A DNA stretch of 64,000 nt, from assembly GCF_947241125.1 (NCBI RefSeq), contig NZ_OX365700.1:992001-1056000 (forward strand). Direction: 5' to 3'. Position 1 is the stretch's first letter; each line of letters begins with the position of its first letter. This DNA is from Nitrospira tepida. Lineage in GTDB: Bacteria > Nitrospirota > Nitrospiria > Nitrospirales > Nitrospiraceae. The position numbers and the translations under genes were made by a program. Under the pieces are notes generated by a model. It saw nothing but the letters and a program-made list of their open reading frames with translations. It was not told the DNA's origin and did no database searches. Below are positions 4,269 to 43,891 of this stretch, in pieces.

Positions 4269-4402
4269 ATCGACCCTCGATGGGCGCTTCGCGCGGTCTG
4301 CATTCTTGACGAACCACTGATCGGTCTGCCACAACAAGGGGGGCTTCCCCCTTGCCGTGCAGGCCGGTAGCCCGCATTATTCATGACGGTTCGCCGCGTT
4401 AC

Positions 4403-4481
4403 ACCTGTTGCATCGCGAAGAGCAACGGGTACCCGGCAGTCGCCAAGCGTTGGACCCATTGCATGGAAAAGCGCAATGGGT
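4403..4481. repeat. Two adjacent ACCC(A/T)TTGC-type hairpins
   Basis: Two small hairpins lie side by side. The first has arms at 4403-4411 and 4422-4430 (ACCTGTTGC with GCAACGGGT, one T.G pair). The second has arms at 4454-4462 and 4473-4481 (ACCCATTGC with GCAATGGGT, perfect). The loops differ while the arms stay complementary. A third member of the same pattern is at 32447-32476. Function is unknown. The surrounding 4269-4712 spacer holds no gene that I can support. Confidence 0.45.
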
Positions 4482-4555
4482 ACCCCCAAGCACAGCCGCG
4501 AAGGACCAAGGCGTACTTGAAACAGTACGTCGAGGGACTAAGCGGCGAGCACGAC

Positions 4556-4612
4556 CGCCATACCAAGCTTCGCTTGAGCCGCCGCGTTCGATCACATCGC
4601 GGCGGAGAGGCA
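4556..4612 (-). repeat. Copy of the covarying hairpin element (minus strand)
   Basis: Read on the minus strand: TGCCTCTCC, a stem CCGCCGCG (4598-4605) pairing perfectly with CGCGGCGG (4579-4586), then a CAAGC tract and the conserved end GAAGCTTGGTATGG (4558-4571). It shares layout and 3' end with the copies before yajQ and ftsL but has a different, still fully complementary stem. No gene follows it on the minus strand, so here it looks like a dispersed element and not a leader. Confidence 0.6.
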
Positions 4613-4712
4613 TTTTGCCTTCGACTTCTCATGTTGGCTCTGTCGCAGCGGCGAATGCGCGATTGCAGCAGAAGCGTTCAGGAATAATGCGGGGGAGGAA
4701 CAGGATTGCGCG

Positions 4713-37984: not shown

Positions 37985-38062
37985 GGAGGAGTCTCTCCGG
38001 CGCCGTCATATTCGATAAGACGAAACAGAGGCGCCGGTTCTAGCAAAGCTTGGTATGGAGGG
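37985..38062 (+). repeat. Covarying hairpin element in the yajQ leader
   Basis: GGAGGAGTCTCTCC, then the stem CCGGCGCC (37997-38004) with GGCGCCGG (38030-38037), then GGTTCTAGCAAAGC and TTGGTATGGAGG. The final GGAGG is the ribosome-binding site of yajQ. The stem is fully complementary yet differs from the stems of the other copies. Confidence 0.7.
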
Positions 38063-38067
38063 CGGCG

Positions 38068-38565
38068 ATGGCGGATCAATTTTCATTCGATGTCGTATCG
38101 GAAGTGAACATGCAGGAGATGAAAAACGTCGTCGATCAGGCGACCAAGGAGATCAAACAGCGGTTCGACTTCAAGGACTCCAAAACGGAGATCACGCTCA
38201 AGGAAAAGGAAAAAGAATTGGTGGTGATCTCCGACGACGACTACAAGCTGAACGCGGTGAACGAGATCATCAAGGCCAAGTGCGTGAAGCGGGGCGTGTC
38301 GCTCAAGGCTCTGACCTACGGCGCGATCGAGCAGGCATTGGGGGGGACGGTCCGCCAGGTCGTCAAGATTCAGAGCGGCATCGCCGCGGACAAGGCCAAG
38401 GAGATCACCAAATCCGTGAAGGACTCCAAGCTCAAGGTGCAGGCTCAGATCCAAGGCGAACAGCTCCGCATCGTGAGCAAGAGCAAAGACGAGCTGCAGG
38501 CGGCGATTGCGTTCTTGAAGCAGAAAGATTTCGGCATCGATTTGCAGTTTACCAACTACCGCTGA
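38068..38565 (+). CDS. yajQ: YajQ-family nucleotide-binding protein
   Basis: 165 aa; the ATG at 38068 lies just after GGAGGGCGGCG. The whole length matches YajQ (DFDVVSEVNMQE-type start SFDVVSEVNMQEMKNVVDQA, then FDFKDSKTEI and the end FGIDLQFTNYR). YajQ proteins bind small nucleotides; in Xanthomonas a member binds cyclic di-GMP and acts as a regulator. The next gene overlaps by one base, so the two are coupled. Confidence 0.95.
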   Translation: MADQFSFDVVSEVNMQEMKNVVDQATKEIKQRFDFKDSKTEITLKEKEKELVVISDDDYKLNAVNEIIKAKCVKRGVSLKALTYGAIEQALGGTVRQVVKIQSGIAADKAKEITKSVKDSKLKVQAQIQGEQLRIVSKSKDELQAAIAFLKQKDFGIDLQFTNYR

Positions 38566-43315: not shown

Positions 43316-43393
43316 GGTGGTATCTCTCCGGCGGCTGTCAAGGAAGAAGGGCGTCGCCCGATGAGCCGCCGGGTCTAGCAAGCTTGGTATGGA
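43316..43393 (+). repeat. Covarying hairpin element, array copy 1 of 3
   Basis: CTCTCC, stem CCGGCGGC (43328-43335) with GCCGCCGG (43365-43372), loop containing GGGCGTCGCCC, then GTCTAGCAAGC and TTGGTATGGA. Confidence 0.65.
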
Positions 43394-43411
43394 AAAGATG
43401 GGGAGAGCCTT

Positions 43412-43480
43412 GGAGGTGTTTTCTCGGGCCGCCAAGAGCAATCAAGTGGGGCGGCCGGTTCTAGCGAAGCTTGGTATGAA
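43412..43480 (+). repeat. Covarying hairpin element, array copy 2 of 3
   Basis: GGAGGTGTTTTCTC, stem GGCCGCC (43427-43433) with GGCGGCC (43450-43456), then GGTTCTAGCGAAGC and TTGGTATGAA. The stem has a new sequence but remains complementary; its loop is shorter than in the other copies. Confidence 0.6.
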
Positions 43481-43486
43481 ACCACT

Positions 43487-43565
43487 GGAGGAGTTTCTCC
43501 GGCGGCGTCAAGGAAGAGGGGCGTCGCCCGATGAGCCGCCGGGTCTAGCAAGCTTGGTATGGAGG
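43487..43565 (+). repeat. Covarying hairpin element, array copy 3 of 3, in the ftsL leader
   Basis: GGAGGAGTTTCTCC, stem CCGGCGGC (43499-43506) with GCCGCCGG (43535-43542), then GTCTAGCAAGC and TTGGTATGGAGG. Its terminal GGAGG is five bases before the ftsL ATG and is that gene's ribosome-binding site. Confidence 0.7.
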
Positions 43566-43570
43566 ATGAT

Positions 43571-43891
43571 ATGAGGCCCCTGTTGATTCTCGGCGTACTC
43601 CTTTTCTTGCTTGGGTATGTCTGGGAACGGGTCGATGTGGTGCGGGTCGGCTACCGCGTCGAGCAGTTGAAGGCTCAGAAGGTGCTGCTCGAGCGGGAAC
43701 GGGACGAATTGAGCGTGAAGCTGGCTTCGCTCAGCGCCCCGGACCGCGTCGCGCGACTGGCGAAGGAGAAATTGGGGATGATGCCGGCCCAGCCCGGACA
43801 GGTCGTCGTCGTGCATCGCGCGGAGCCCAAGCCGCAGCCTGAGGGTCCTTCCGTGCAAGAGGTCCGCGTCGCGAAGCGCGAGGTGCGCTAG
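43571..43891 (+). CDS. ftsL: Cell-division protein FtsL
   Basis: 106 aa from the ATG at 43571; the in-frame ATG at 43559 lies inside the hairpin element's conserved end and has no ribosome site. A single membrane helix (LLILGVLLFLLGYVW) is followed by a heptad-like coiled coil (VEQLKAQKVLLERERDELSVKLASL) ending near LAKEKLGM, typical of FtsL. FtsL, FtsB and FtsQ form the divisome trimer that activates FtsI/FtsW; no ftsB was found here. The tail is Pro/Gln/Val-rich. It abuts ftsI. Confidence 0.85.
   Translation: MRPLLILGVLLFLLGYVWERVDVVRVGYRVEQLKAQKVLLERERDELSVKLASLSAPDRVARLAKEKLGMMPAQPGQVVVVHRAEPKPQPEGPSVQEVRVAKREVR

Follow-up and report, generated by a model that had tools for sequence, protein, structure and literature searches.

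Palindromic repeats are already known in bacteria. The REP/BIME/REPIN sequences, with their RAYT (TnpA_REP), are short, dispersed intergenic palindromes of high copy number; they are non-autonomous and form hairpins as DNA. In REP sequences with a RAYT, the tetranucleotide GTAG or GTGG lies 0–2 nt from the hairpin foot on its 5′ side (PMC6006769, PMC3733652). The repeat also flanks the RAYT (Y1) gene of the genome. The ends of IS200/IS605 and the PATEs derived from them show a subterminal hairpin, a fixed 3′ end and a strand-specific target beside that end. In the attC sites of integrons the shape of the folded strand is conserved over its sequence, and arrays grow serially from one end; the integron integrase recombines these sites on their folded bottom strand. 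Tyrosine-integrase islands use tRNA and tmRNA 3′ ends as targets. The terIS ends of IS91 and other rolling-circle elements have a 3′ hairpin near a fixed terminus, and they occur in head-to-tail arrays, one end of which adjoins the target.

Here a hairpin repeat of the Nitrospiraceae is described. By analogy, it resembles the small repeats that are recognized as folded single strands, i.e. REP, IS200/IS605 ends and attC. It forms a family of dispersed copies with two covarying hairpins, a fixed 3′ junction and two classes of target.

The repeat also departs from each of these systems. Unlike REP/BIME/REPIN sequences, it lacks the GTAG/GTGG tag at the hairpin foot: the foot is T-C/A-T before CC, and on the other strand GAA-type before CC. 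Its stems covary freely within one genome, there are two linked hairpins, and its arrays are same-strand and are not inverted pairs. It is placed exactly at Shine-Dalgarno, tRNA and tmRNA sites, and no Y1 distribution matches it. Unlike IS200/IS605 and PATEs, it contains a single pair of hairpins in each 94-bp unit, and Y1_Tnp is missing in several copy-rich genomes; a left-end hairpin or guide tetranucleotide pairing, both features of IS200/IS605, was not recognized by eye. Its arrays differ from those of attC in that the copies are not separated by gene cassettes, R box motifs were not seen, and the targets are ordinary genes. The tyrosine-integrase islands are unlike these units, which are 94 bp long and without genes, have a junction exactly at CCA, and use a second target class, the Shine-Dalgarno sequence. 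As to IS91 and the rolling-circle elements, Y2_Tnp is found in only one of 60 Nitrospiraceae genomes.

The free but covarying stems, the two linked hairpins, the base-exact placement and arrays that look polar are unusual, and among the small mobile palindromic repeats the family is provisionally considered new. The open-licence papers on Nitrospira repeats and on repeats at tRNA ends gave no description of it.

Hairpin Copies in the 64-kb Window

The window is the whole stretch of DNA that was analyzed, 64 kb (contig C1, positions 992001–1056000) of a Nitrospira tepida genome (G000) that consists of a single contig of 4.73 Mb. Three copies, read from the sequence, form an array on the plus strand before ftsL. 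Copy 1 (positions 43316–43393; covariance model score 66.6 bits) has the stem CCGGCGGC/GCCGCCGG at positions 43328–43335/43365–43372 and a mini-hairpin, TAGC-AA-GCTT, at 43376–43385. Copy 2 (positions 43413–43480; 49.4 bits) has the stem GGCCGCC/GGCGGCC at 43427–43433/43450–43456 and the mini-hairpin TAGC-GAA-GCTT at 43462–43472; a single change relative to its own subfamily (CTCGGG for CTCCGG) breaks one outer pair. Copy 3 (positions 43487–43563; 74.4 bits) is gene-proximal. It displays the same stem as copy 1 at 43499–43506/43535–43542, a mini-hairpin at 43546–43555 and the terminus GGTAT. The target adjoining the array is the ftsL Shine-Dalgarno sequence GGAGG (positions 43561–43565, plus strand), with the ATG at 43571.

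A single copy on the plus strand (positions 37985–38059; 81 bits) precedes yajQ. Its stem is CCGGCGCC/GGCGCCGG; GGAGG is at 38057–38061 and the ATG at 38068.

A further copy is found on the minus strand at positions 4557–4617 (stem CCGCCGCG/CGCGGCGG; 61 bits). It lies in a MITE at about 4369–4696 with terminal inverted repeats of the CCCGCATTATTCATGA type, as delimited by an alignment of 18 genomic copies with the left end read. The first-pass annotation had listed the array before ftsL, the yajQ copy and a copy at 4579–4605, and a reading of the sequence finds all of them as described. The stem at 4579–4605 is present, but this copy is a passenger inside a MITE, unlike the other four.

Copy Number and Distribution

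The first-pass annotation had also proposed a covariance-model search of Nitrospira genomes for further copies. In this genome there are 58 occurrences of a 12-nt sequence from the 3′ region of the repeat, AAGCTTGGTATG, far more than chance would give, and none of its reversed control; pairing is kept in the extra copies. A covariance model (termed R1) was built from hairpin copies and used for genome searches. It matches 141 copies in the Nitrospira tepida genome, i.e. about 123 free-standing copies (class A) and 18 copies in a MITE (class B). The class A copies make up 54 arrays of 1–5 copies each, and all arrays are same-strand.

The class B copies, which include that at window positions 4557–4617, have the hairpin within a MITE of ~300–480 bp with CCCGCATTATTCATGA terminal repeats. 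This MITE (window positions 4369–4696 and 17 other sites) also has internal GGGTACCCATTGC...GCAATGGGT hairpins beside the element. A different MITE-like element is present in genus g19 (loci L263–L287), with ends near GGATGTTGAAAAAG / CTTTTTGAACATCC and the hairpin in mid-element. Thus several unrelated MITEs carry the hairpin.

The covariance-model search that had been proposed yields many further copies in the Nitrospiraceae: R1 matches are present in 51 of 60 genomes and in 19 of the 22 genera sampled, with 0 to 80 or more copies per genome. A search of 246 genomes of the phylum shows no match outside the Nitrospiraceae. No real copy was found in viral contigs, plasmids and phages; two viral 19-mer matches reach only 14–17 bits and are taken as chance.

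Structure and Covariation of the Two Hairpins

The repeat unit is ~94 bp in length. Its 5′ part is purine-rich; there follow an 8-bp GC-rich stem, a 3-nt linker, a mini-hairpin of 3–4 bp with a GAA-type triloop closed by C-G, and the terminus GGTAT. The outer CC/GG of the stem is almost invariant, and the inner six pairs vary freely in compensating fashion. A set of 39 diverse copies, drawn from this genome and from related ones, has as its constant parts TCC at the stem foot, the outer CC/GG and a 3′ tail ending in GCTTGGTAT. All eight stem pairs show 100% pairing there, and at six of these both sides have changed, but the rows had been picked for pairing. The pairing test was therefore redone on copies chosen by the 3′ 12-mer alone. 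A stem of at least seven Watson-Crick pairs is found at the expected place in 79% of 57 distinct copies, compared with 2.1% of random sites.

Two large alignments, both model-derived and fitted to the structure of the covariance model, give two-hairpin covariation scores of 0.461 (116 distinct copies; shuffled mean 0.102) and 0.292 (134 distinct copies; shuffled mean 0.075), and in each case none of 500 shuffles reaches the score. The signal is lost when the partner is slid by 1–3 columns.

The arms of the mini-hairpin also covary, e.g. AAGC/GCTT, AACC/GGTT, AAAC/GTTT, ACAC/GTGT and others. The loops in 208 copies are GAA (154), AAA (34), CAA (13) and GTA (5). The closing C-G pair was a search requirement and hence is no evidence in itself.

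Probable Insertion Targets

In 32 of the 54 arrays, the 3′ end is followed a few bases on by the start codon of a reading frame in the same direction, nearly always directly via GGAGG. Eight arrays adjoin an intact tRNA gene that is encoded on the other strand, with the final TGG of the array complementary to the tRNA CCA. The same TGG/CCA junction is found once at the tmRNA gene, and one array adjoins a tRNA-Ser gene at its 5′ end. The remaining 12 arrays are of other types; four adjoin apparent tRNA 3′ fragments, and in several a partial copy, read by eye, appears to lead on to GGTATGGAGG and an ATG. The four arrays at apparent tRNA fragments are at genome positions 668295, 1649476, 2798530 and 4000312, and these fragments look like remnants of islands integrated into tRNA genes.

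The same target classes recur in other genera, i.e. several tRNA species, tmRNA and Shine-Dalgarno sites. By a gene-density estimate, about one in 100 random strand-specific positions would have a start codon at such a distance, and an exact tRNA end would be far rarer. GG or TGG by itself is too frequent to explain why Shine-Dalgarno and CCA sites are so exactly chosen. The genes beside the arrays have unrelated functions.

Two observations concern particular sites. A copy lies beside an apparent 5S rRNA terminator at G000:C1:4249304 and at L149 (G053), seemingly in the same place in two genera, which is unlike other copies. Upstream of yajQ in other genera (L238, L248 and L250), other short repeats, e.g. 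AGCTGAAAGGCTGAAAGCTGACC types, are present before some of the same start codons.

Filled and Empty Sites and the Growth of Arrays

There are empty orthologous sites, the members of an array are mutually independent, and gene-proximal copies are better kept. The orthologs of yajQ, Grx4, flgC, the citramalate-synthase-like and the sugar-dehydrogenase genes, five genes that carry the hairpin in Nitrospira tepida, are mostly without it elsewhere, and the Shine-Dalgarno sequence is in its usual place. The absence at most of these orthologs rules out a conserved orthologous regulator. The Grx4 gene has the hairpin in genome G004; in G023, of the same genus, the site is empty and the target is intact. 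In genus g19, genomes G018 and G038 carry the hairpin at one Shine-Dalgarno site and at one tRNA-Ala site that are both vacant in G030, where GGAGG and CCA are undisturbed. The genomes compared in this way are diverged and are not sister strains. Dispersed copies together with filled and empty orthologous sites are a general mark of small mobile DNA repeats, and both are found here.

Array neighbors have 73% identity and random pairs 70%, and near-identical neighbors make up only 6 of 56 pairs. Since neighbors are about as different as random copies, the arrays appear to have grown mainly by independent insertion of different members at one place; tandem duplication is ruled out as the main source of arrays, the six pairs excepted. 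The spacing within arrays clusters at 93–99 bp. Model scores are higher for the gene-proximal copy in 32 of 35 arrays, a polarity that is partly due to the terminal GGTATGG, retained by the last copy only. The full stem is kept in 86% of gene-proximal copies and in 57%–64% of those at the next two ranks. The exact left boundary of the element and a target duplication were sought, and neither was pinned down.

Search for an Enzyme

Y1 genes are present in 36 of the 60 Nitrospiraceae genomes, including that of Nitrospira tepida. There is no Y1_Tnp match in the copy-rich genomes G004, G023, G018 and G038, and the distribution does not follow copy number. The flanks of the Y1 transposase genes in the Nitrospira tepida genome contain none of the element motifs searched. 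The single genome with Y2_Tnp likewise gives a distribution that does not follow the hairpin family. A cluster of copies at 2259000–2263300 was inspected by eye for an autonomous partner; only an apparent IS3-type transposase pair and a MazF-like gene are present, and this candidate was rejected.

The copies could be relics of a REP or IS200/IS605-like system whose Y1 (HuH) transposase has since been lost from many genomes. Such an origin would fit a hairpin with a fixed 3′ terminus behind it, the strand specificity of insertion, the many dispersed copies and the Y1 genes themselves. It is nevertheless judged unlikely, given the copy-rich genomes that have no Y1_Tnp match, the Y1 genes of Nitrospira tepida, which have no element motif alongside, and a hairpin foot that is without the GTAG/GTGG tag on both strands.

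DNA or RNA as the Folded Form

Selection at the RNA level would tolerate G-U pairs, and G-U would then exceed A-C. In the 8-bp stem, the two large alignments together contain 1870 Watson-Crick cells, 21 G-T and 23 A-C. G-T is thus no more common than A-C, and the pairing looks DNA-like and not RNA-like. As DNA, a GAA triloop closed by C-G makes a mini-hairpin of exceptional stability (d(GCGAAGC)).

Folding as DNA recovers the conserved stem for each of the four window copies, and nearly all shuffles of the yajQ copy fold less well than the copy itself (z −2.9). When folded as RNA, no window copy beats its own shuffles, and the minimum-energy fold of the yajQ copy differs from the conserved hairpin. 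The evidence favors a folded DNA strand as the conserved form, on small mismatch counts and on alignments that lean on the model.

An Rfam scan of the window gave no family match above the gathering score, in agreement with the first-pass annotation, which had recognized no riboswitch or leader family of this kind. The same annotation had proposed selection on a folded RNA or a cruciform DNA. Selection on a folded strand is upheld by the covariation score (0.461, with a shuffled mean of 0.102) and by the paired extra copies; the RNA part of the proposal is disfavored by the missing G-T excess and the weak RNA folds.

A regulatory RNA was considered, i.e. a 5′ leader hairpin pair that stabilizes the mRNA or controls Shine-Dalgarno access and is kept where it is useful. 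The hairpins covary, and the 32 arrays directly before a Shine-Dalgarno sequence run in the gene's own direction, as a leader would. A leader function is quite improbable, however: adjoining genes have unrelated functions, the stem shows no G-U preference, RNA folding is weak, most orthologous genes lack the hairpin, and the position at tRNA and tmRNA 3′ ends is antisense. These antisense copies and the mostly empty orthologous sites are better explained by a mobile DNA element than by a leader RNA.

A non-mobile functional DNA site (for a nucleoid protein or gyrase, or an insulator) at the boundaries of transcribed units would suit the location of copies at such boundaries and the copy after the apparent 5S rRNA terminator that is seemingly retained in two genera, but it is very improbable because such a role needs no base-exact GGAGG/CCA junctions, occupancy at orthologous genes is patchy, and array members are as unlike as random copies.

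Proposed Mechanism

The repeat is probably a family of ~94 bp non-autonomous mobile DNA hairpins that are inserted serially and site-specifically. A recombinase would recognize the folded single strand of DNA by its shape. The 3′ terminus of the element (GGTAT) would then be joined to one of two chromosomal targets. The first is just 5′ of the Shine-Dalgarno GGAGG; the second is flush with TGG, which on the other strand reads as the CCA at the 3′ end of tRNA and tmRNA genes. Later copies would enter the same target and displace older copies away from the gene, and same-strand arrays would result.

A more specific proposal is offered tentatively, as a possibility that is not the probable outcome: an undescribed site-specific system of the Nitrospiraceae may add the 94-bp hairpins, recognized as single strands, serially at Shine-Dalgarno sequences and at the CCA of tRNA and tmRNA genes, by means of a recombinase whose class has so far no known connection with elements of this kind. 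Such a system would leave polar arrays, comparable to integron and CRISPR arrays in their growth from one end.

Significance of the Hairpin Family

The Nitrospira family includes the main nitrite-oxidizing and comammox bacteria. In the open-licence literature, no described family was found that combines free stem sequence, DNA-type pairing and base-exact landing. Occupancy varies between genomes, which makes the mechanism open to comparison of sister strains. Insertion of the repeat represents a natural route by which structured DNA is placed between a promoter and a start codon, with the Shine-Dalgarno sequence and the start codon left in place. The hairpin family points to a putative DNA-processing enzyme in the Nitrospira family.
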